From NCBI GenBank assembly GCA_963169165.1, contig CAUJFL010000092.1, forward strand, positions 1 to 64,000: a stretch of 64,000 bases of DNA. Reading direction: 5' to 3'. This DNA is from Myxococcota bacterium (GTDB taxonomy: Bacteria; Myxococcota_A; Polyangia; Polyangiales; Polyangiaceae). Position numbers and translations under genes: made by a program. Under the pieces are notes generated by a model. The model saw only the letters and a list, made by a program, of their open reading frames with translations, had not been told where the DNA came from and ran no database searches. Below, one piece after another: positions 27,609 to 43,354 of this stretch (position 1 is its first letter; each line of letters begins with the position of its first letter).

Positions 27609-28904
27609 TTGCCCTCCCTCGCACGTCGTGCCTCCGTCGGGGCCTTGGCGCTGGGTCTGAGCGCGCTCGGCGGCAGCGCCCGCGCCGCCGAGACCTACTC
27701 GGGCCAGGACTTTCGCACGCTCGCCCGCTCCACGGTGGGCGTGATGCGCGCGCACCAGTGGGTCCTGCGGGCGCAGATGGATCGCGGGCAGGTGCCGTTC
27801 TTTGCCAACGGCATCTACCGGGGCATGCGCGCGAAGCTCGAGATGCCCAACGGCGCGACGGTGCCCGGGCTCGTGACGCGCGCCGGCGCCGAGAACTGGG
27901 GCGGCAGCGGCGACGTGGCGAGAGACTTCGGGCTCTTTTACGGCCTCCAGCTCGACGCGCTGCTCGCCGAGCCCGATCGGGGCAGCGACCAGCACATGGT
28001 CGCAGACGGCCTCGCGTTCATCGGCGCCGGTTACCATGGGTTCGAGGCATCGGTTGGCCTCCGTACCACCTGGACCCGTGGCTTCACCCCGAGCGGTAAC
28101 TTTGGCGGAGGCGACGCTACCCGCGCCGGGACTCCCCCAGCCTACGCCTTCGATGGTGGCAAGACCAAGGATCGCTTCGCGCTCACCGGTGTCACGATCT
28201 CCACCTACCACAAGGAGGGGGTGACGCTCGGGGCCGCGCTCGGACAGGCGCTCGTCCAGTCGTCGGACGGAGCGGTCTCGCCCGAGACCGTGCTCGCCTC
28301 CGCGCGCGCGCTCTTCCAGCCCGAGGCGCTGATGAAGCGGCTCGACCTGCGCAAGTGGCTGGGGATCCCCGGGGTGGGCCTCGAGCGCATCGCGGGTCAG
28401 GTCGACTTCTACGGCGACCGCTACCTGGCGGTCCGTGATCGCGCCGCGGCGGTCGCGAGGGGCGCGGCGGCGGTGCCGAACGTCATCCCCGCTCGGGAGG
28501 CGGCCATCTACGAGATCCCCACGTCCATCGACGATCTCCTCTCTCTGGGCGTTCACCTCGGGGCGGTGACACAGGTCGCGCCGACGCCGCTGCTGCGCTC
28601 CGGTGAGATCGGGTGGATGTGGGCCAACGATACGCTGCAGCTCGGCGCGCGCGGCGCGGTCGTGCGCCGAGGAGCCGAGTACGGCGGAGCGTACGACGCC
28701 TTCGCCGGGGTCGCGCTGCAGGACTTCATGCTCGTCGGTTCTCTCAGCTACAACAGCCCCGATCCCTCGACCTCGCTCCCCGTCCCGTTCGCGCGGGTGA
28801 TCGGGCTGCAGCTCTTCTGGGGGCCCGCTGACATGGCGCGCCCGCTCGTGCCGATGCTCGGCGTGCGCAAGCCGAAGCTCGACCGCGAGAGGAGCGGGAC
28901 GTGA
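27609..28904 (+). CDS. Secreted protein of unknown function
   Basis: Signal peptide ending GSARA; coupled to the RCC1 gene by a 4-nt overlap. No recognised domain. Confidence 0.65.
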   Translation: MPSLARRASVGALALGLSALGGSARAAETYSGQDFRTLARSTVGVMRAHQWVLRAQMDRGQVPFFANGIYRGMRAKLEMPNGATVPGLVTRAGAENWGGSGDVARDFGLFYGLQLDALLAEPDRGSDQHMVADGLAFIGAGYHGFEASVGLRTTWTRGFTPSGNFGGGDATRAGTPPAYAFDGGKTKDRFALTGVTISTYHKEGVTLGAALGQALVQSSDGAVSPETVLASARALFQPEALMKRLDLRKWLGIPGVGLERIAGQVDFYGDRYLAVRDRAAAVARGAAAVPNVIPAREAAIYEIPTSIDDLLSLGVHLGAVTQVAPTPLLRSGEIGWMWANDTLQLGARGAVVRRGAEYGGAYDAFAGVALQDFMLVGSLSYNSPDPSTSLPVPFARVIGLQLFWGPADMARPLVPMLGVRKPKLDRERSGT

Positions 28905-31612
28905 CGCGGCGCGCGCGCCTCAGCTGGCTCCTGCCGATGGTGCCGCTCGCCGCCGTCGGTTGCCTCACGAACACGTTGCTCCCGGACCCCGGAGAGGGAG
29001 AAGGCCCGATCGCTCCCGCCGACCGGCTCGCGGCTCGGCTCTCTCCGCTGCTCGCGCCCGGCGCCGTCCAGCTCGCGCCACCGCAAGACCTCGATCCGAC
29101 CACGCTCGCGCTCGCGTCGGTGCCGTTGCGCAACGGCGCGTATGTCCAGGTGCTCGGCCGCCGCGTGGTCAGGGAGCACGACCGTACGACGGGCTACACC
29201 AGCGCGATCCGCGGCACCACGCAGGCCTGGATCGACGCCCAGGGGCGCGTGGTGCCGCTCCACGTCACGGCGGCCGACGGTCTGCTCACGCTCGCGGCTC
29301 AGTCCGCCGTCCCGGTCGGAGATGGCCTCCTCTTTCCGACGAGCGCCGGGACGCTGTGGCAGCTCCTGCCGCTGCGGCTCGAGCAGGCGACCTCGGCGGC
29401 CGGAGTGCTCGGCCCGGCGCTGGCCGCGGACCAGTTCGTCAGCGCGACCTCGGCCGGCGAGGGCGTGCGCGTCGAGGTGTCACGGCTCACGCTCGGTGCG
29501 ACGCGAGAGGCGCCCGTGAGCAGCGCGTCGATCGGGCTGGGCGAGGCCGGGTCGGCGCGCTGGCTCGAGGAGATCGCTCCGGGCGTCGTCGCGCTCGTCG
29601 CCGAGGCGGCCGACGGTAGGCTGCTCTTCGCGAGGAGCGACGGCGGCGCGATCGTGTCGACCACGGAGCTGAAGCTCCCCGCGCTCACCACCGATCCAAC
29701 CTACGGCTGGCCGATGCCGCCGGAGCCTCCCAGCACACGGTTCCGCTTCGACGCGGGCGACCTGCTCGTCGTGAGCGACGACGAGACGACCGGCCCCGCG
29801 AGCGTGCTGTCGAGGTGGCGCGTGAGCGGAGACGGCTCGGTGGAGCGCGTCGCGACGGCCGAGCCACCGCCTCCCGGGTTCGGCGAGTGGTCGCCTCCTT
29901 TTGGCTTTGGCGCGTCGCTCGCGGCGCGCGCCGAGCCCAACCCCCAGGAGCCCACGCTCGAGGTGCCGCTCGCCTACCGCGCCCGCGCGATCGTCGGCGC
30001 GGCGTTCGACTCGATCGACGTGCCGCGCACGCCCTGCCTCGACGACGAGGCGTGTCGTTCGATCGGCGAGAGCTCGCTGCTCGGCGTGGTCGGGCTCGGC
30101 GAAGCGCCGGTCGCGATCTACGGTCTCTGGGCGTGGATTCAGGAGCAGAGCGCGCAGCTCGTGGGCCTCTACGCGCGCCCGCTCGGGGCTCCCGCGGCGC
30201 CCTACGCGGCCTGTACGCCCGGCGCCGGGGTGTGTACGAGCGCGAGCGCGCGGCGCGCGTGCAACCTCGACGGGACCGCGATCGTCGACGAGTCGTGCGT
30301 GCCGCCAAAGCGCCGTTGCGTCGACGGCGCTTGCGCCGCCGAGTGCGCGACGGCGAGCGACTGCGCCGTGAAATCGAGCTGCGTAGATCCGGTCTGCAAC
30401 CCCGACGGCACCTGCGCGGTCGATCCGTCGAAGCACGTCGGCGCGGCGTGCACGTCGGGCGACGCCGCGGGGACCTGCTCGCCCGCCGGCGCGTGCGTCA
30501 TCTGCACGCCAGGCGAGAGCCGGTGTGACAACGGCGTCATGCTCGTGTGCGGACCCGACGGCGCGGGCTTCGGGCAGACAGGCAGCTGCGCGAGCGCCGT
30601 CGAGCTCGGCGCGGGAGGGCGTCACACCTGCGCGCGCCTGACCACGGGCGGGGTCGTGTGCTGGGGCGCGGACACGCAGCCGAAGCCGACCCTCGTCCCG
30701 CTCCCCAATTCCAGGGCGCTCGCGGTCGGCGGTGCGCACGCGTGCGCGATGGACGCCGGCGGCTCGGTGCAGTGCTGGGGGCGCAACGACGTCGGTCAGC
30801 TCGCAACTGGCCCGACCGGCGTCGACGTGAACAGCCCGAAGCTCATCGGTGGGACCTTCACTTCGATCGTCGCGGGCGGTGGACACTCCTGCGCGATGCA
30901 ATCCAATGGCGTCGTGAGCTGCTGGGGAGACAACACCCAAGGCGAGGTCGCGAACGGCGGCTCGGGGATGCCCTCTCCGGCTCCGAGCGCGGCGCAGTGT
31001 GGCTCGGCGAAGGGTGACACGGTGTTCGCCGGCATCGCGAATGGTGCCATCGTGAAGCCAGGCGGCGCGCTCATCGCCTGGGGGCGAAACGACGCGGGAC
31101 AGTCGGGCATCGGCTACATCACCGGCCCGCTCACGACCGGGATGACGACCCCGCTCACCGGCGTCGTCGAGGTGACCTTTGGCTTCTTCCACGGGTGCTC
31201 GCGCCACACGGACGGCGCCGTGCGCTGCTGGGGGCTCGGAGACGGCGGGCAGCTCGGCAACGGGCAGCTCGCGACCAGCTACGCCGCCGTGACGACGACG
31301 GTCGCCGACGCGGTCAGCGTCGCGGCCGGCTGGTACCACACCTGCGCGGCCACCAAGGCGGGTCAGGTGCTGTGCTGGGGCCACGAGGATCACGGTCAGC
31401 TGGGGGACGGAGGCGCCGACGGCGCGCCGCGCCCGACGCCAGCCGTCGTCTCCGGGGTCTCCACGGCGGTCAAGGTCGTGGCGGGAGATCAACACTCATG
31501 CGCGCTGCTGAAGGGCGGCGGCGTCGTCTGCTGGGGGATGAACGACGTGGGGCAGCTCGGCGATGGAACGAGCGGCAACGACCGCGCGCTCCCTGTGACA
31601 GTGAAGCTCTGA
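28901..31612 (+). CDS. Large lipoprotein with C-terminal RCC1 repeats
   Basis: Lipobox LAAVGCL; repeated GGxHxCA...GxVxCWGxNxxGQLGxG blades. Confidence 0.88.
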   Translation: MTRRARLSWLLPMVPLAAVGCLTNTLLPDPGEGEGPIAPADRLAARLSPLLAPGAVQLAPPQDLDPTTLALASVPLRNGAYVQVLGRRVVREHDRTTGYTSAIRGTTQAWIDAQGRVVPLHVTAADGLLTLAAQSAVPVGDGLLFPTSAGTLWQLLPLRLEQATSAAGVLGPALAADQFVSATSAGEGVRVEVSRLTLGATREAPVSSASIGLGEAGSARWLEEIAPGVVALVAEAADGRLLFARSDGGAIVSTTELKLPALTTDPTYGWPMPPEPPSTRFRFDAGDLLVVSDDETTGPASVLSRWRVSGDGSVERVATAEPPPPGFGEWSPPFGFGASLAARAEPNPQEPTLEVPLAYRARAIVGAAFDSIDVPRTPCLDDEACRSIGESSLLGVVGLGEAPVAIYGLWAWIQEQSAQLVGLYARPLGAPAAPYAACTPGAGVCTSASARRACNLDGTAIVDESCVPPKRRCVDGACAAECATASDCAVKSSCVDPVCNPDGTCAVDPSKHVGAACTSGDAAGTCSPAGACVICTPGESRCDNGVMLVCGPDGAGFGQTGSCASAVELGAGGRHTCARLTTGGVVCWGADTQPKPTLVPLPNSRALAVGGAHACAMDAGGSVQCWGRNDVGQLATGPTGVDVNSPKLIGGTFTSIVAGGGHSCAMQSNGVVSCWGDNTQGEVANGGSGMPSPAPSAAQCGSAKGDTVFAGIANGAIVKPGGALIAWGRNDAGQSGIGYITGPLTTGMTTPLTGVVEVTFGFFHGCSRHTDGAVRCWGLGDGGQLGNGQLATSYAAVTTTVADAVSVAAGWYHTCAATKAGQVLCWGHEDHGQLGDGGADGAPRPTPAVVSGVSTAVKVVAGDQHSCALLKGGGVVCWGMNDVGQLGDGTSGNDRALPVTVKL

Positions 31613-35475: not shown

Positions 35476-37236
35476 TCAGCGCTTCGCCGAGGGGGCGGGC
35501 CGCGAGGTGCCGTTGGCGACCCACGCGCGCTCGAGCCCGACCGCGGCGTTCGTCAGCGTGACCTTGCCCTTGCCCGCCGTCAGCTGCACCGTGTCGCCCC
35601 ACTGGGCCACGGGCGGCAGGGTGATCGAGCGCTGACCCTTCAGCGCCGCGAGCCCGGCGGCGTCGGCGGAGAACACCGCGATTCCGGCGCCCGCCAGCGC
35701 GCTCGCGAGGCCGCTCGGGAGGGCCGCGCCGATGACGACGCGCACGCTGGCGTCCAGCTCGCCGACGCGCGTCGCGAGGGCGCGCGCGCTGTCGGCCGAC
35801 GCGAGCAGCGCCACCTCGGCGCCGCCAGGCTCGGGGAGCGCCTCGACGAGGTCGAACGTCGTCGTCTTCCAGCCGCGCGGCGCCGGGGCGGCGAGCGGTT
35901 TGTCGCGCTTCGGGGCGCCCGCCTCGGGCTTGCGCTCGCGCGTGACGAGCACGTCGTCGGTCGGCAGCACCCGCGGGATCGTCACGCGCACTGGGCGCTT
36001 GAACGCGCGCGGATCGCCGAGCGTCCCCGTCGCGACCGCGTAGGCGAGCGTCTCGGCGGACGCGACGATGAACCCCGGCGCGAGCGGCTCGGGATCGCAG
36101 GTGCGCAGCGACGTGCGCCCCGGCCCGACCGGATAGAGCTCGCCCGCCATCACGCGACGATCCGGCTCGACGATGCGCGCGCCGGTCGCGGCGAGATCGG
36201 CGAGCGCGCCCGACTGCGCCAGCACCTCGAGGGCCTGACGCGAAGGCGGCGCGACGAGGAAATCGAGGCGCGACGGCACGCGCTTCGATTTGAGCAACGC
36301 CGCCGCGGCCAGCAGGTCGCGGAGATTGGTGCCCGAGTCGCCGCCCAGGATCGCCTGGTGGATGGGCTTGCCCGCGAGATCGCGCACCGAGCGCACCTGC
36401 CCCTGCTCGTCGCAGATCAGCGGATCGACCGTGCCGAGATCGAGCGTCACCGCGTCGTCGCACGGCGCGCCTTGATCGGCGAACAGCGTGCGGTGCGCCT
36501 TCGAGCGGCGCTGATCTCGCAAGAAGCTCTCGGTCTTCTCGTCGGACAGGAACAGCCCCGCGGCGGCGCCCAGCATCGGCGCCGCGCCCGCGAGCACCGC
36601 GCGCTCGGAGACGTTCAGCAGCTTGGCGCTCTGGCCCGCGAACTCGAGGACGACGGGCGCGCGGTGGCGCTCTTCGATCCGCTTGACCACGTCGCCGATG
36701 CCTCGACGCACGAGCTCGAGCGCGACGTCGCGAGCGCACACGAACGGCCGCGTTCGTCCCGAGATGAGGATCTGCACGGAGCGCGGCGGCCGTAGCCACA
36801 CCGAGCCCTGCGCGAGCGCCTGCGCGAGCTGCCCCGGCGACGCCAGGAGCACCAGCATGCCGACACCGCCGAGCGGCGCGAGGCGCGGATCGTCGGTGAG
36901 CGCGAGGCGCGCGGGCGAGCCGAACCGCTCGAGGTGCACCGGCGCGGGGAAGCCGATCCCGGGGCGGGCGACCTGGACGCCGGCGGAGAGCATCTCGGGG
37001 ACGACCGCGGACCACGCGCCCGCGGCGACCTTGGAGTTCCACGCGACGTCGGTGACGCAGACGCCGTCGTAGGCGACGGCGACCTCGAGGGGGGTTTTCT
37101 TGAGGCCCGCGGCGACCGCCTCGACATAGGCGCGCGTCGGCGCCCGCGAGAGGATCACCTGATCGACCTTGACCTGGACGAGATCGCCCCTCAGCTGAGG
37201 ATCGGCGGCCCGCCCGGCCAGGATCTTTTGGGGCAT
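35476..37236 (-). CDS. Aconitase-superfamily homolog (large plus swivel domain architecture) lacking canonical catalytic/Fe-S motifs
   Basis: MPQKILAGR start; GVGMLVLLASPGQLAQALAQGSVWLRPPRSVQILISGRTRPFVCARDVALELV; VLEFAGQSAKLLNVSERAVL...GLFLSDEKTESFL; GGDSGTNLRDLLAAAALLKSKRVPSRLDFLVAPPS all track aconitase/LeuC blocks. Confidence 0.75.
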   Translation of the reverse strand: MPQKILAGRAADPQLRGDLVQVKVDQVILSRAPTRAYVEAVAAGLKKTPLEVAVAYDGVCVTDVAWNSKVAAGAWSAVVPEMLSAGVQVARPGIGFPAPVHLERFGSPARLALTDDPRLAPLGGVGMLVLLASPGQLAQALAQGSVWLRPPRSVQILISGRTRPFVCARDVALELVRRGIGDVVKRIEERHRAPVVLEFAGQSAKLLNVSERAVLAGAAPMLGAAAGLFLSDEKTESFLRDQRRSKAHRTLFADQGAPCDDAVTLDLGTVDPLICDEQGQVRSVRDLAGKPIHQAILGGDSGTNLRDLLAAAALLKSKRVPSRLDFLVAPPSRQALEVLAQSGALADLAATGARIVEPDRRVMAGELYPVGPGRTSLRTCDPEPLAPGFIVASAETLAYAVATGTLGDPRAFKRPVRVTIPRVLPTDDVLVTRERKPEAGAPKRDKPLAAPAPRGWKTTTFDLVEALPEPGGAEVALLASADSARALATRVGELDASVRVVIGAALPSGLASALAGAGIAVFSADAAGLAALKGQRSITLPPVAQWGDTVQLTAGKGKVTLTNAAVGLERAWVANGTSRPAPSAKR

Positions 37237-37438
37237 CGTGCGAGGCGGATCGCCTGCTCGCGCGCGCATGTTGGAAGTTCCGAGCTCCGACGTTTCGTGG
37301 GTTTCGTGGCGCCCGGCGCCGCTTCGGACGGCTGCGAGCGGCCAGGGAAGTTATCCGCTCGAAAGCCAGGGGGTCAAGCGAGCCTTTTGGAAAGAACTTC
37401 CCGAAAGGGTGCGCGCCCTCGTAATCTGCCGCACCACG

Positions 37439-37798
37439 ATGTTCAAAGAAGCGCTCGCGCACGTGGTCGACGGGACCGAGGGCGGCCTCGCCGGCCTGCT
37501 GATGGATTTTCAAGGTGTCGCGGTCGAGACCTACACGAAGCCTGGCGCGGCGCTCGACATGGACATCGTCGGCGCCGAGTTCTCCGTCGTGATCAAGTCG
37601 ATCCAGCGCGCCGCCGAGTCGCTCGAGGCCGGTCGCGCGCAAGAGGTCGCGGTCAGCGTCGACAAGATGATCACGGTGATCCGCGTGCTGAACTCCGACT
37701 ACTTCGTCGCGCTCGCGATGGCGCCGGACGGCAACATCGGCAAGGGGCGCTACCTGCTGCGCACCGCCGCGCCGAAGCTCCTCTCCGAGCTCGAATGA
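37439..37798 (+). CDS. Roadblock/LC7 domain protein
   Basis: GLAGLLMDFQGVAVETYTK...FSVVIKSIQRAAESLEAGRAQEVAVSVDKMITVIRVLNSDYFVALAMAPDGNIGKGRYLLRTAAPKLLSEL. Confidence 0.88.
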   Translation: MFKEALAHVVDGTEGGLAGLLMDFQGVAVETYTKPGAALDMDIVGAEFSVVIKSIQRAAESLEAGRAQEVAVSVDKMITVIRVLNSDYFVALAMAPDGNIGKGRYLLRTAAPKLLSELE

Positions 37799-38334
37799 CC
37801 ACGAGGCCCGGCGAGGTCGTCTCGCTGCCACGCCGCGAGCCGCCGCGCGTGCTCGTCGTGTCCGGGCCCAACCTCCAGCTGCTCGGCCACCGCGAGCCCG
37901 AGATCTACGGCGCGACGACGCTCGACGAGATCCACGCGCGCCTGACCGAGGTCGCGCGCGGCGACGGCGCGTCGGTCGTCGCGCGGCAGAGCAACTCGGA
38001 GGGAGAGCTGGTCACGTGGGTCGGCGAGGCCGCGCGCGACGGGTTCCACGGCGTGCTGATCAACCCGGGCGCCTACACGCACACGAGCATCGCGCTGTTC
38101 GACGCGGCGAGGGCCTGCGGCCTGCCGCTCGTCGAGGTGCACCTGTCGAACCCCGACGCGCGCGAGGCGTTCCGTCGGCGGAGCTTCGTCGCGAGGGCCG
38201 CGATCGCGCGCGTCGCCGGCTTCGGGTGGCGCTCGTATGAGCTCGGGTTGCTGGGGCTGCTCGCGCACCTCGGTCGCCCCGCGCCGCGCGCGCGCGCCCG
38301 CGCCAAGGTCGCCGTCCTGAAGAAGCCGCGCTGA
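37795..38334 (+). CDS. aroQ: Type II 3-dehydroquinate dehydratase
   Basis: VSGPNLQLLGHREPEIYGATTLDEI; QSNSEGELV; LINPGAYTHTSIAL; VEVHLSN. ATGA overlap with roadblock gene. Confidence 0.93.
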   Translation: MTTRPGEVVSLPRREPPRVLVVSGPNLQLLGHREPEIYGATTLDEIHARLTEVARGDGASVVARQSNSEGELVTWVGEAARDGFHGVLINPGAYTHTSIALFDAARACGLPLVEVHLSNPDAREAFRRRSFVARAAIARVAGFGWRSYELGLLGLLAHLGRPAPRARARAKVAVLKKPR

Positions 38335-38344
38335 GGTCGGAACC

Positions 38345-39400
38345 TCAGCGCGCGCCGAGCGTCGAGAGAAAGTCGGCGATCTTCGACAGCGGCAGCACCT
38401 CGTTCGCGAGGCCCGCGCGCACCACGGCGCCAGGCATCCCGTACACGACCGCGCTCTCCTCGCTCTCGGCGACGACGAGCCCGCCCGCCTCGCGGATCGC
38501 GCGCGCGCCCGCCAGGCCGTCGTCTCCCATGCCCGTCAGCACGACGCCGCACACGTCGAGCGCGGGAGCCGCGAGCTGGGCGACGCTGCGGAGCAGGCGA
38601 TCGGCGCTGGGGACGTAGCGATCGTTCGTGCCCGGCGCGCCCGTCCGCAGCCGGAGCTCGGCGCCCACGCGGACGATCTCCATGCACTGGCGACCGGGGC
38701 ACACGTAGCCGCGCTGCGCCGCCACGAGGTCGCCCTCCTGCCCCTCGGTGACGCGAAAGGAGCCCCGCTTGTCGAGCCGCTCGGCGAACGTCCGCGTGAA
38801 CTTGTCGGGCATGTGCTGCGCCACCAGCACGGAGGCGGGGAGCCGCGGCGACAGCCTGGAGAACACCTCGAGCAGCGCCGTCGGCCCGCCGGTGCTCGAG
38901 GCGACGCCGATGACGAGCCTCGGGGTGCCGCTCGGTTGCTCGCTCGGGGGCGGTGTCTCCCGTGGGCGCACGCTGCGCGCTTCGGGGGCCGCGCGCCGCA
39001 GGTTGCGGACGAGGCGCACCTTCTCGAGCAGCTCGGTGCGCACGTCGGCGCCCTCGGGGGCGACCTGGCGCTCGGGCTTCGCGACGAAATCGATGGCGCC
39101 GAGCTCGAGCGCCTTGAAGACGTTCTCCTTCTGGCTGTAGCTCGACACGACGATCACCGGCGTCGGCTGCTTGGCCATCAGGATCCGCAGGAAGGTGAAG
39201 CCATCCATGCGCGGCATCTCGAGGTCGAGCGTGATGACGTCGGGCTTCAGCTGCGCGACGAGCCGCAGCGCCTCGTCGCCGTCGGACGCCTTGCCGATGA
39301 CCTCGGCGTCGTCGCTCCCCGCGAAGATCTCGGCGATGTTTCGGCGGTTGAACGCCGAGTCGTCGACGACCAGCACCCCCAGCTTCTTCTTGTCGTTCAT
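38345..39400 (-). CDS. cheB: Chemotaxis response regulator protein-glutamate methylesterase
   Basis: REC: VLVVDDSAFNRR...VITLDLEMPRMDG; methylesterase: GVASSTGGPTAL, VAQHMPDKFT, GMGDDGLAGA. Confidence 0.96.
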   Translation of the reverse strand: MNDKKKLGVLVVDDSAFNRRNIAEIFAGSDDAEVIGKASDGDEALRLVAQLKPDVITLDLEMPRMDGFTFLRILMAKQPTPVIVVSSYSQKENVFKALELGAIDFVAKPERQVAPEGADVRTELLEKVRLVRNLRRAAPEARSVRPRETPPPSEQPSGTPRLVIGVASSTGGPTALLEVFSRLSPRLPASVLVAQHMPDKFTRTFAERLDKRGSFRVTEGQEGDLVAAQRGYVCPGRQCMEIVRVGAELRLRTGAPGTNDRYVPSADRLLRSVAQLAAPALDVCGVVLTGMGDDGLAGARAIREAGGLVVAESEESAVVYGMPGAVVRAGLANEVLPLSKIADFLSTLGAR

Positions 39401-40278
39401 CGGACCCCCTTCTTCGGCTCGGAGTCGGTCGGTGGGCGTCGGTACACGAACGTGTCCGCGAGCTGCACGGGCTCGAACGGCCCCGGCTCGGCGAGCAGCG
39501 ACTCGGAGTGGCCGAGCATCAGGAAGCCCCCCGGCACGAGCCGCTCGAACAACAAGCCGAGCACCGCCTTTCTCGCCTCGGGCACGAGGTAGATGAGCAG
39601 GTTGCGGCAGAACACGGCGTCCGCGCGGCCGACCACGCTCGCGCGCACCTCGTCGAGCAGGTTGAGCTGGGAGAACGTGCACATGTCCTGCAGGTGACCT
39701 CGGACGCGCGCGCCGTCCTCGTGCGGCTCGAAGCTCGACGAGGCGGCGAGCCCGGGCGAGCCGCGGAACGAGCCCTTGCCGTAGACCGCGCGCCGCGCGA
39801 ACGCGACGCAGCGCTTCGACAGATCGGTGCCGAGCACGCGGAGGTCCCAACCCTCGAGGTCGGGCGCCTCGGACAGCAGGATCGCGAGCGAGTAGGCCTC
39901 TTCGCCCGTGGCGCAGCCCGCGCTCCAGACGGTCAGCCGACGCCGCGACGCCGCGAGCTCTCGGAGCCTTGGCACGATCTCGCGGCTGAACGCGGTCAGC
40001 TGGTACTCTTCTCGAAAGAAGTAGGTCTCGTGCGTCGTGACGAGGTCGAGCGCCTCCTCGATCTCGCGGCGAGCCGCCGGGGTGTCGCGCCGCAGCAGGT
40101 CGGCGTACCCGCCGAACGTCTCGGCGCCGGTCGCGATCACGCGATCGCGCAGCTTGCGCTCGATCGCAGGCCGCGCGTCCTCGCCGAGCGCCAGCCCGGC
40201 CACCTCCCGGAAGAGCTCGACGAGGCGCCCGGCGTCGTGCGCGTCGAGCGTGGGCGGCTGGGAGGGGACGGGCTTCAT
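39397..40278 (-). CDS. cheR: Chemotaxis protein methyltransferase
   Basis: LVTTHETYFFRE; VWSAGCATGEEAYSLAILL; VLGTDLS; AVFCRNLLIYL; FLMLGHSESL. Confidence 0.96.
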   Translation of the reverse strand: MKPVPSQPPTLDAHDAGRLVELFREVAGLALGEDARPAIERKLRDRVIATGAETFGGYADLLRRDTPAARREIEEALDLVTTHETYFFREEYQLTAFSREIVPRLRELAASRRRLTVWSAGCATGEEAYSLAILLSEAPDLEGWDLRVLGTDLSKRCVAFARRAVYGKGSFRGSPGLAASSSFEPHEDGARVRGHLQDMCTFSQLNLLDEVRASVVGRADAVFCRNLLIYLVPEARKAVLGLLFERLVPGGFLMLGHSESLLAEPGPFEPVQLADTFVYRRPPTDSEPKKGVR

Positions 40279-40739
40279 GGAGTGGCCTCGACCGCGGCGG
40301 ACACGACGCCGAGCTTCTCGAGGTCGAGCACGAACGTGCGGCGCTCGCCCTGTGTGGCGACGCCGACCAGCGCGCGTCGAGCGGCGTACGCGCCGAGCTC
40401 GGGGGGCGGCCTCAGCTCGGCCCCGCGCGTGCCGAACACGTCGGTCACCGCGTCGACGACGAGCGCGACCAGCCCGCGCGGGGTGCGCGCGACGATCCAC
40501 TTCGAGCGCGGCGCCTCTCCCTGCACCCCGAAGCTCGCGCGCAGATCGACGACCGGCACGACGTCGCCGCGAAATTCGGTGACCCCGAGCACGTGCTCTG
40601 GCAGCCGCGGCAAGCGATCGAGCGGGAGCGGGTTGACGATCTGCACGACCTTCGAGATGTCGATCGCGTAGCCCACCTCGCCGAGGGTGAAGCCGACGAG
40701 GCTCTTCTGCGGGTTGGAGGCGGCGCGGTCGCGCGGCAT
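40275..40739 (-). CDS. cheW: CheW-like adaptor protein (1)
   Basis: FTLGEVGYAIDISKVVQIVNPLPLDRLPRLPEHVLGVTEFRGDVVPVVDLRASFG. Confidence 0.92.
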   Translation of the reverse strand: MPRDRAASNPQKSLVGFTLGEVGYAIDISKVVQIVNPLPLDRLPRLPEHVLGVTEFRGDVVPVVDLRASFGVQGEAPRSKWIVARTPRGLVALVVDAVTDVFGTRGAELRPPPELGAYAARRALVGVATQGERRTFVLDLEKLGVVSAAVEATP

Positions 40740-41239
40740 CAGAGCACCTTCAGCACGGCGGCCAGCGACAGCAGGATCAGCAGCTGATCACCTTGTCGTC
40801 CGAGCCCGACCACGTGCTCCGACACGGTGCCGCCGAGCGCGGTCGCGGGCTCGATCTCTTGCTCGGCTAGCCGCACGACGTTGAGCACCTCGTCGACGAG
40901 GAGACCGATCGTCTCGTCGTGCGGCGCGCGGACGAGCAGCACGCGGGCGCGGCGCACGCTCGCGGGAGCGACCGGCCTCGCGCGCTTGCCGAAGCAGACG
41001 CCGAGATCGAGCACCGTCACGAGCATGCCGCGGACGCTCGAGATCCCCAGCACGGCGCGCGGCGCCCGCGGGACGAACGTGGTCGACGGCGGCGACAGCA
41101 GCTCGCGCACGTCGGCGAGGGGCAGCGCGAAGACCTCGTCCGCGACGCGGAACGCGAGGTGCTCGGTGACGTGCTCCCACTCGAGCGAGTGGGCGCGCCG
41201 CGCGAGGCGAGCTGCCGGGGTGCGCGCGAGATCGGCCAC
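40739..41239 (-). CDS. CheW-like adaptor protein (2)
   Basis: FRVADEVFALPLADVRELLSPPSTTFVPRAPRAVLGISSVRGMLVTVLDLGVCFG; IGLLVDEVLNVV. Confidence 0.9.
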   Translation of the reverse strand: MADLARTPAARLARRAHSLEWEHVTEHLAFRVADEVFALPLADVRELLSPPSTTFVPRAPRAVLGISSVRGMLVTVLDLGVCFGKRARPVAPASVRRARVLLVRAPHDETIGLLVDEVLNVVRLAEQEIEPATALGGTVSEHVVGLGRQGDQLLILLSLAAVLKVL

Positions 41240-41242
41240 GGG

Positions 41243-43354
41243 TCACGCCGATGATGCCACGTCCTTCAGGCGTGAATCCGTCTTTCGAGCCTCGCCGCCG
41301 CTCATCGCCTCGTCGATCAGCGCGGGCGCGTCGAGCACCAGGCCCACGCGCTGATCGCCGAGCGACGCCGCCCCCGCGAAGCCCCGCACGCCCGCGAGCG
41401 AGCGCCCGAGCGGCTTGATCACGATGTCCTGCTGGCCCTCGAGGAAATCGACCACGACGCCCAGGCGCCGCGCCCCCGCCGACACGACCAGCACGAACCG
41501 GCTGCGGCCCCGCGGCCGCGCGGTCAGCTCGAAGAGCGCGTGCAGGTGCACGAGCGGCAGCGACGCTCCGCGCAGCGTCATCACCTCGCGCCCGTCGACC
41601 GTCCTGCTCGCCGCCGGATCGTACGCGAGGGCCTCCTCGACCGCCGACAGCGGCACCGCGAACGTCTGGCCGCCAGCCTCGACCAGCAGCGACGAGAGGA
41701 TCGCGAGCGTGATCGGCAGGGTCACCGTCATCTTGGTGCCGATCCCTGGCTCGCTCTGCACATCGATCACGCCGCCCAGGCGGGAGATGTTGGTCTTGAC
41801 CACGTCCATCCCCACGCCGCGCCCCGCGAGCATGTCGGCCTGGCCCTTCGTCGAGAACCCCGGCAAGAAGATGAGCCCGAGCAGCGCGCGATCGTCGAGC
41901 TCGGCTGCGCCCGTCTCGTCGAGGAGCCCACGCGCGAGCGCGATCTCGCGGATCCGCGCCCGATCGATGCCGCGCCCGTCGTCCTCGATCTCGATCCAGA
42001 CGTGGCTGCCCTTCTGGAACGCGTTGATCGCGATCGTGCCGACCTCGGGCTTCCCTAGCGCCACGCGATCATTGATCTGCTCGATGCCGTGATCGATCGC
42101 GTTGCGGACCATGTGCATCAGCGGATCGCTCAGCTCTTCGACGATCAGCTTGTCGAGCTCCGTCTCGGCGCCGGTGATCACGAGGCTCACCTGCTTGCCG
42201 GCCTCGCGCGACGCCTGGCGCGCGACGCGCCCGAGCTTGTCGAAGATCTGCCCGATCGGGACCATCCGCACCTCGAGGATGCCGTCCTGCACCTCGCCGA
42301 GGTGCCGCTCGAAGCTCCGCTGCAGCCGGTACAGCTCGAACCCCAGCTCGCGGAGCGACGGGTTCGCGCGGACGCGCTCGGTGATGCGGGCGAGCGACGA
42401 GCGCACGATCGAGAGCTCGCCGACCACGTTCATCAGCGAGTCGAGCTTGCGGATGTCGACGCGCACCGTCTGGGACACCGATCGCAGCGACAGCCCCGCC
42501 GCGCCGCCCTCTGCCGCGGCGACCGGCTCGTCGAGCTCCTCGCGCGCGCGCGGCGACAGCTCTGCGTCCTCGGCGCGCGACCGGGGCGGCGCGTCGGTCG
42601 GGTCTCGGCGACGGTCGACCTCCTCGACCGTCACGCGCTCGCGCTGCAGCGTCGCCGTGATCTCCTCGTGCGTCGCCCGCGAGGCCAGCAGCAGCTCGAG
42701 CTCGATGCTCTCTGCGTCTCCGCCGTCGCCGGTAGGCAGGTACGTGACGATCTCGCCGAGCGGCTTCGCGCGGGCCTTGAGCGTCTCGAGCTCCTCGTCG
42801 ATCGTCAGCAGGTTGAAGCTCGCGCGGACCCGGAACAGCGAGAAGCCGCTCGAGATGCAGGTCCGCAGGCGGTGCTCCTCGTACTCGGTCAGCACCGCGA
42901 GCAGGCTCGGATCGAGATCGTACGCCGCCGAATCGCGCGCGCCCGGCGCGACGCTGCGGCGGACCGCCTTCGCGAGGTCGGCGAGGAACTTGTCCGCCGC
43001 GCCGAACAGCGACTCGTCCGGCTCTCGCTCGAGCGTCAGGAGCTGGCCGTAGACGTCGAGCGCGCGGAACAGGAGATCGAGCACCTCTCGCGTCAGCTCG
43101 ACGCGGCCGAGCCGCAGGTCGTCGAGCACCTCCTCGAGATCGTGCGAGAGCGTCGCCATGCGCGACGCCCCGAACAGCCCCGCGAGCCCCTTCAGCGTGT
43201 GGACCCCGCGAAAGACGTCGTTGACCAGCTCGGGCGACGACTGGCCCCGCCGCGCCACCTCGTCGAGCGCGAGGAGATCCCGCGAGAGGCCCTCGACGAT
43301 CTCCTGCGCTTCGGAGAAGAACTCCTCGCGCGCCTTGTCGGTCACATCCGCCAC
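41243..43354 (-). CDS. cheA: Chemotaxis histidine kinase CheA
   Basis: HPt FRGVHTLKGLAGLFG; N box HMVRNAIDHGIE; DDGRGID; GRGVGMDVVKTNI; C-terminal CheW-like regulatory domain. Confidence 0.96.
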   Translation of the reverse strand: MADVTDKAREEFFSEAQEIVEGLSRDLLALDEVARRGQSSPELVNDVFRGVHTLKGLAGLFGASRMATLSHDLEEVLDDLRLGRVELTREVLDLLFRALDVYGQLLTLEREPDESLFGAADKFLADLAKAVRRSVAPGARDSAAYDLDPSLLAVLTEYEEHRLRTCISSGFSLFRVRASFNLLTIDEELETLKARAKPLGEIVTYLPTGDGGDAESIELELLLASRATHEEITATLQRERVTVEEVDRRRDPTDAPPRSRAEDAELSPRAREELDEPVAAAEGGAAGLSLRSVSQTVRVDIRKLDSLMNVVGELSIVRSSLARITERVRANPSLRELGFELYRLQRSFERHLGEVQDGILEVRMVPIGQIFDKLGRVARQASREAGKQVSLVITGAETELDKLIVEELSDPLMHMVRNAIDHGIEQINDRVALGKPEVGTIAINAFQKGSHVWIEIEDDGRGIDRARIREIALARGLLDETGAAELDDRALLGLIFLPGFSTKGQADMLAGRGVGMDVVKTNISRLGGVIDVQSEPGIGTKMTVTLPITLAILSSLLVEAGGQTFAVPLSAVEEALAYDPAASRTVDGREVMTLRGASLPLVHLHALFELTARPRGRSRFVLVVSAGARRLGVVVDFLEGQQDIVIKPLGRSLAGVRGFAGAASLGDQRVGLVLDAPALIDEAMSGGEARKTDSRLKDVASSA

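Follow-up and report, generated by a model that had tools for sequence, protein, structure and literature searches.

A maintained aconitase-family protein of Polyangiaceae without the iron-sulfur cluster cysteines and with a predicted cluster-independent role

Introduction

The known catalytic members of the aconitase superfamily, to which the aconitase of the Krebs cycle belongs, carry, to our knowledge, an iron-sulfur (Fe-S) cluster. Proteins of this fold can also bind RNA, as in IRP1, which contacts RNA through its active-site arginines. Among bacterial enzymes, the AcnA of Mycobacterium binds RNA as apo-aconitase (PMC7527780). The superfamily also includes AcnX, which keeps an Fe-S cluster despite the relocation of its ligands (PMC8184944).

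Here, an aconitase-family protein, referred to as the pseudo-aconitase, is described from a window of 64,000 nucleotides of a Polyangiaceae genome (GCA_963169165.1, contig CAUJFL010000092.1), this window being the whole stretch of DNA that was analysed. The Polyangiaceae are soil bacteria, with Sorangium among their genera. The original prediction, made from the letters of the window, was of a full-length protein that appeared to have lost the cluster ligands and substrate motifs of aconitase and that was either a non-cluster pseudoenzyme or a repurposed activity. No description of this family was found in the open-access literature searched.

Results

Gene and start codon

The gene had been placed on the minus strand at 35476-37236, and this frame is unbroken (586 codons, 586 aa) and contains all the sequence blocks quoted for it; its start, however, lies further upstream. 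An 11-residue in-frame leader (37237-37269, minus strand) precedes the earlier start in 79 of the 79 sequences examined, with MRARAGDPPRT as the usual reading and one or a few differing residues in the other sequences. The first and second codon positions of this near-invariant leader are at least 90% identical and the variation falls mainly at third positions, which are variable in most codons, and no conservation was seen 5' of the leader ATG in the 79 sequences. Since the leader is conserved with coding-type variation and nothing is conserved before its ATG, the start is assigned to 37269, 33 nt upstream of 37236, which gives a gene at 35476-37269 (minus strand) encoding 597 aa. Residue numbers used below start at the Met of the shorter frame (MPQK...).

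Fold and domains

The protein matches the Pfam family Aconitase (PF00330) with an E-value of 7.1e-22 and 78.4 bits (cut-off 28.7). Its NCBIfam matches span the aconitase/LeuC group as a whole, yet it scores far under every equivalog cut-off, with 166.5 bits for NF005558 (PRK07229; cut-off 612), which leaves it outside that family, and 158.7 bits for TIGR01342 (cut-off 719). Relatives in the PDB were found with E-values down to 4.4e-19 by sequence and 2.6e-25 by profile. In a profile-profile comparison (hhalign) with eleven PRK07229-type aconitases from other Myxococcota, residues 2-543, including the swivel domain, were aligned with a probability of 100% (E 2.9e-52). AlphaFold2 with 70 orthologues (71 sequences) gave a model with a mean pLDDT of 85.7 and a pTM of 0.88, whereas the single sequence gave an unusable model (pLDDT 36.7). 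The top PDB match of the model by Foldseek was mitochondrial aconitase (1c96; E 1.1e-28, TM 0.77 by query length, 727 alignment columns), followed by matches that include the large subunit of the isopropylmalate (IPM) isomerase MJ0499 (TM 0.83 by target length), AcnB, IRP1 and, weakly, AcnX (E 5e-10).

Aconitase domains 1-3 correspond to residues 1-430 (35947-37236, minus strand), as supported by PF00330, NCBIfam, Foldseek and dN/dS. The swivel domain (domain 4, LeuD-like) corresponds to residues 455-586 (35479-35874, minus strand) and is shortened, degenerate and fast evolving. The LeuD-like C-terminal part that had been proposed is covered both by the profile-profile alignment and by a Foldseek match to LeuD (2pkp; probability 0.92, 110 columns). 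Most of the stretch equivalent to TDHI..RSNIP is absent from it, and because the profile alignment runs through residue 543, the swivel is read as present but shortened. The searches could have assigned the protein to an unrelated fold; sequence profiles and the confident AlphaFold model instead agree on the aconitase/IPM isomerase fold, and they indicate that the pseudo-aconitase has the four domains of aconitase (domains 1-3 plus swivel).

Cluster ligands and active site

The active-site columns were mapped through the profile alignment in 74 near-full-length orthologues, with residues named as in mitochondrial aconitase; for the residues other than the cluster ligands, these names are the ones that we take to belong to each motif. 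The cluster ligands of mitochondrial aconitase (C358, C421 and C424) were taken from PMC8184944.

All three cluster cysteines are missing from every one of the 74 orthologues. The position of C358 is occupied by Asp300 (36337-36339, minus strand), with Asp in 73 of the 74, and the Cys421-x-x-Cys424 pair is replaced by RRVM (36148-36159, minus strand), with R360 at C421 and M363 at C424, both columns being variable and without Cys, the second one holding hydrophobic residues or Thr. In place of GSDSHT, the protein has TDDPR (36883-36897, minus strand), where D165 corresponds to D116 (Asp or Glu), S166 to P117 (mostly Pro) and H167 to R118 (Arg in 72/74). H147 corresponds to A98 (mostly Ala), N258 to Gly, Ala or Ser, and E262 to a variable column, which makes D165 the sole survivor among His147, Asp165, Ser166, His167, Asn258 and Glu262. 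The arginines R447 and R452 are both lost (P382 and P387), R580 is deleted and S642 and S643 are also lost; an Arg is aligned at R644 in 68 of the 74, in a region that is poorly aligned. These columns match, one by one, the four motif replacements that had been named from the sequence.

The protein has five cysteines (60, 167, 259, 275 and 380, kept in 59, 70, 67, 2 and 13 of the 74 orthologues, respectively); none is at a ligand position and none is invariant, so the cluster ligands are not found elsewhere in the chain. In the active relatives, nearly all mapped catalytic positions are identical (11/11), with an exception at C358 in the GSSANPG-type proteins described below. The pseudo-aconitase has neither the three Cys ligands nor the catalytic set nor the set of substrate/base residues that mark catalytic members of the family, having lost the cluster cysteines, the catalytic Ser, His and Glu, and the citrate-binding arginines. 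Judged from these replacements, the protein very probably has no [4Fe-4S] cluster and no aconitase activity.

A separate variation was seen at six loci of other Myxococcota (L140, L141, L143, L144, L145 and L146), which encode PRK07229-type aconitases with GSSANPG[YFW]RD, having Ser at the Cys358 position where GSCTN is normal. They keep GSDSHT and GCNGC and, where this was tested (L141), are full length and exceed the cut-off of the family. L145 and L146 do not differ in the stretches compared, and the five distinct GSSANPG aconitases form one clade (support 100/100). From their motifs, these aconitases may bind a cluster with two cysteines.

Distribution, selection and origin

Orthologues are present in 32 of the 37 Polyangiaceae genomes searched and in the three sampled genomes of one neighbouring family (f8), a distribution with which a wider genome sample agrees. 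When 85,462 species genomes were scanned, 80 loci were found, whose titles name Polyangiaceae or the genera Sorangium, Polyangium, Minicystis, Labilithrix and Byssovorax, plus one metagenome-assembled genome (MAG) labelled Nannocystis; the remaining titles are broad Myxococcales, Polyangia or (delta)proteobacterial records, nearly all of them MAGs. Genome-sequenced strains of Sorangium cellulosum, Polyangium and Minicystis also have the gene.

Compared with its nearest relative (L036), the pseudo-aconitase is 93% identical over the whole protein, a degree of conservation that equals that of mglC, aroQ and GDH and exceeds that of most che genes. For residues 1-430 the identity is 96.7%, with 11, 5 and 101 differences at the first, second and third codon positions, respectively, and a dN/dS of 0.053 by the NG86 method, whose synonymous estimates become rough at larger distances in these GC-rich genomes. 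The core formed by domains 1-3 is under strong purifying selection. The swivel remnant is the fastest-evolving part, with a dN/dS of 0.29 in the same comparison. A full-length frame without catalytic residues is thus held under purifying selection, as is characteristic of a pseudoenzyme, and this, together with the distribution of orthologues, bears out the original view of a gene that is maintained and not decaying.

In the maximum-likelihood tree, the pseudo-aconitases form one clade with a support of 100/100 and a stem of 1.96 changes per column. The clade falls inside or beside the PRK07229 aconitases (~650 aa), where the exact branching point is ambiguous and one member has an odd composition. 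The family is a lineage-specific paralogue of the monofunctional PRK07229/TIGR01342-type aconitase, fixed with new invariant residues. In total, 54 positions are invariant in the family and absent from the active relatives, among them R118, R163, R169, E236, D241, R243, S245-R249, D271, D300, D359, K413, R414, R417 and R422. D115, D359 and R378 are near-invariant, and a Gln of aconitase is replaced by Arg31 in 71 of the 74 orthologues. The longest invariant or near-invariant run, FLRDQRRSKAHR (36490-36525, minus strand), lies in a stretch of lower confidence in the model, and a conserved basic segment, FKRPVRVTIPRVLPTDDVL (35947-36003, minus strand), follows domain 3. The median pI of the family is 9.4, compared with 5.9 for the active PRK07229 relatives.

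The genome of the window has separate genes for AcnA (1391 bits) and LeuC (738 bits), the canonical enzymes whose presence had been proposed as a check, and a third aconitase-family member with SCTG and CGAC motifs. Other genomes with a pseudo-aconitase that were checked also have strong Aconitase-family matches elsewhere. As AcnA and LeuC are encoded separately in the same genome, the pseudo-aconitase is not the aconitase of the organism.

Genomic neighbourhood

The divergent neighbour of the pseudo-aconitase gene is mglC (37439-37798, plus strand), encoding a Roadblock/LC7-type polarity protein, followed by aroQ (37816-38334, plus strand) for type II 3-dehydroquinase (Pfam DHquinase_II, E 9e-49). 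The window MglC had no Pfam match and was identified through a five-sequence profile that matches PDB 7ct3 (MglC) over the full length with an E-value of 4.9e-32, and through synteny. Pfam and NCBIfam miss this mglC orthologue, with Robl_LC7 reaching only E 0.0065 in one orthologue.

The divergent mglC adjoins the pseudo-aconitase in 73 of the 80 loci, which are all the Polyangiaceae loci with a readable flank; of the other seven, three are truncated at a contig end and four belong to family f8. Behind mglC, most loci have aroQ, accB and accC, and the genes on the far side of the pseudo-aconitase differ between lineages. The intergenic region between pseudo-aconitase and mglC has a median length of 261 bp and contains CTTGACCC in 49 of the 73 cases (in shuffles, any 8-mer reached at most 13). 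A promoter-like pair conserved in these regions is formed in the window by TTGACC (37377-37372) and ATAACT (37354-37349), separated by 17 nt (37349-37377, minus strand); despite the strong conservation of CTTGACCC, a strict sigma-70 consensus scan of the intergenic region gave no match.

Other families and some Polyangiaceae have the mglC-aroQ-accBC operon and lack the pseudo-aconitase, so mglC does not need it. Three Polyangiaceae genomes show mglC directly adjoined by the genes that elsewhere come after the pseudo-aconitase. The pseudo-aconitase was therefore either gained beside an older operon or cleanly lost several times, and it is dispensable. Genus g13 has neither the pseudo-aconitase nor mglC. 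In family f8 (L091, L094, L095 and L097), the pseudo-aconitase lies downstream of genes for an ABC-F-like ATPase and a glutaredoxin-like lipoprotein and faces pyrB and tsf; mglC lies at a separate site in these genomes. No pathway genes clustered with the pseudo-aconitase were seen at the loci compared, and no mention of aconitase was found in two papers on MglC.

Two other features of the window were recorded. A chemosensory cluster (38345-43354, minus strand) includes CheB with a receiver domain and CheR, identified with Pfam, and CheW-like and CheA-like frames from the list of open reading frames; in the window and in L036, the sister genome, it comes directly after mglC-aroQ, a place taken by accB-accC in other Polyangiaceae. 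At 28901-31612 (plus strand), the window encodes a bacterial RCC1-repeat protein of 903 aa whose start resembles that of a lipoprotein.

Discussion

Sequence comparisons indicate that the pseudo-aconitase is a real, maintained and lineage-wide member of the aconitase family, either a pseudoenzyme or an enzyme rebuilt without the cluster, which agrees with the two readings of the original prediction. As the fold is kept under selection and the cluster ligands and nearly all catalytic residues are lost, the protein probably has a new job, different from that of aconitase.

The leading reading, to which we give a probability of about 0.55, is that of a cluster-independent binding or regulatory protein. 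It would fit the basic pI of the family, the conserved promoter-like element and the divergent mglC at all 73 readable Polyangiaceae loci. The four-domain fold, which is kept, would be locked in the 'apo' state, which is a natural reading since apo-aconitases bind RNA (PMC7527780), and the basic, Arg-rich segments MRARAGDPPRT, FLRDQRRSKAHR, LLKSKR and FKRPVRVT would bind an anionic partner. Taken jointly, a transcript or DNA, an acidic protein and an anionic metabolite have a somewhat better than even chance of including this partner; a nucleic acid in particular, by analogy with apo-aconitases, is a tentative suggestion, and the first candidate target would be the divergent mglC operon. Since the active-site arginines by which IRP1 contacts RNA are themselves missing from the pseudo-aconitase, lost or deleted, binding in the manner of an IRP would require different contacts. 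The overall pI supports a basic nucleic-acid-binding signature; arginine makes up 11 of the 54 family-specific invariants, which is not clearly more than the 9 of the 54 invariants common with active aconitases, so that the signature is a lead only. Three Arg-rich segments that are conserved (the leader, FLRDQRRSKAHR and FKRPVRVT) either are not covered by the model or fall where its confidence is lower. Many polar invariants (D115, R118, D300, D359 and R378) would suit a new active site as well, which counts against a binding or regulatory protein.

The main rival is built on these residues. The old pocket is not random, several of its positions being newly invariant (Asp at C358, Arg at H167, Arg31 in place of Gln, and the near-invariant D115, D359 and R378), and a cleft remodelled with carboxylates and arginines (D115/D116, R118, D300, E357/D359 and R378), perhaps with a mononuclear metal or none, could act on another anionic substrate. 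AcnX gives a precedent in the superfamily for changed cluster and substrate sites with function kept (PMC8184944). A cleft enzyme is expected to conserve its swivel, and the swivel of the pseudo-aconitase is shortened and evolves fastest (dN/dS 0.29 versus 0.05). In aconitase, this domain holds the loop with the general base Ser642, which is lost here. Together with the dispensability of the gene in several lineages and the lack of clustered pathway genes, this makes a new cluster-independent enzyme possible and clearly less probable than a binding or regulatory protein. A bolder statement, and one that we regard as rather doubtful, is that this is a permanently cluster-free aconitase-fold family, seen here only in Polyangiales, recruited as a stand-alone regulator (binding nucleic acid or as part of the Mgl polarity module) or as an enzyme with an Asp/Arg pocket and without Fe-S chemistry.

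A role in the Mgl cell-polarity system, in which the basic pseudo-aconitase would bind the acidic MglC or share its regulation and so couple metabolism to polarity or gliding in Polyangiaceae, is unlikely. It would fit the divergent mglC, identified through 7ct3, in all 73 readable Polyangiaceae loci while the far-side genes vary, the absence of both genes from genus g13, and the complementary charge (median pI 4.8 on the MglC side versus 9.4). However, many genomes have mglC without the pseudo-aconitase, the two are apart in family f8 with mglC intact elsewhere, and the adjacency may simply be inherited.

A cluster still bound through other residues in the manner of AcnX, whose ligands come partly from different positions (PMC8184944), for example through C60, C167, C259 or the Asp at the C358 position, is very improbable: C167 and C259 are frequent (70/74 and 67/74), yet the protein from the window has no invariant cysteine (C60 is kept in 59/74), and every orthologue lacks the Cys421-x-x-Cys424 pair, whose cysteines AcnX retains at equivalent or nearby positions. 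An artefact of a GC-rich genome or a decaying pseudogene can be dismissed, even with long overlapping open reading frames common in the window and stops or splits in the orthologues of G036, G021 and G014, given the 80 loci with conserved motifs, the coding-type variation of the leader, the confident fold from the family alignment and the purifying selection (dN/dS), which rules out decay.

A large, conserved bacterial clade in which the fold is kept and the cluster discarded would be a different outcome for an ancient enzyme. It offers a natural test of whether an 'apo' aconitase can become a permanent regulator, or whether this fold can catalyse without Fe-S chemistry. It is also a warning for annotation: the pseudo-aconitase scores above the Pfam threshold for Aconitase, and genome models could include it among the aconitases.

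Comparison with known systems

The closest relatives by sequence are the aconitases of the PRK07229 (NF005558)/TIGR01342 type, with about 650 aa, the same single-chain domain order and an alignment over residues 2-543, sharing blocks such as VHLERF and SxETxAxA..G...DPR. They keep GSDSHT, GCxxC, the paired arginines after GCxxC, RSN and GSSRE, whereas the pseudo-aconitase has none of these and a shorter swivel. AcnX is likewise an aconitase-fold protein with changed cluster and substrate sites (PMC8184944); it is still active and still has a cluster ([2Fe-2S] or [3Fe-4S]), whereas the pseudo-aconitase has lost the ligand cysteines and branches on the aconitase side. No AcnX was found among its Pfam, NCBIfam or PDB-profile relatives and the Foldseek match is weak, which places it outside AcnX. 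IRP1/IRP2 and the bacterial apo-aconitases have the aconitase fold and bind RNA when cluster-free, and the model of the pseudo-aconitase matches IRP1 in Foldseek; IRP1 and bacterial AcnA are switchable enzymes with their active sites kept, whereas the pseudo-aconitase, from its residues, would be unable to switch. The best relatives of solved structure by sequence profile are LeuC/LeuD and the homoaconitase large subunits (MJ0499 and MJ1003), which belong to two-subunit enzymes with intact motifs, in contrast to the one chain with lost motifs of the pseudo-aconitase.
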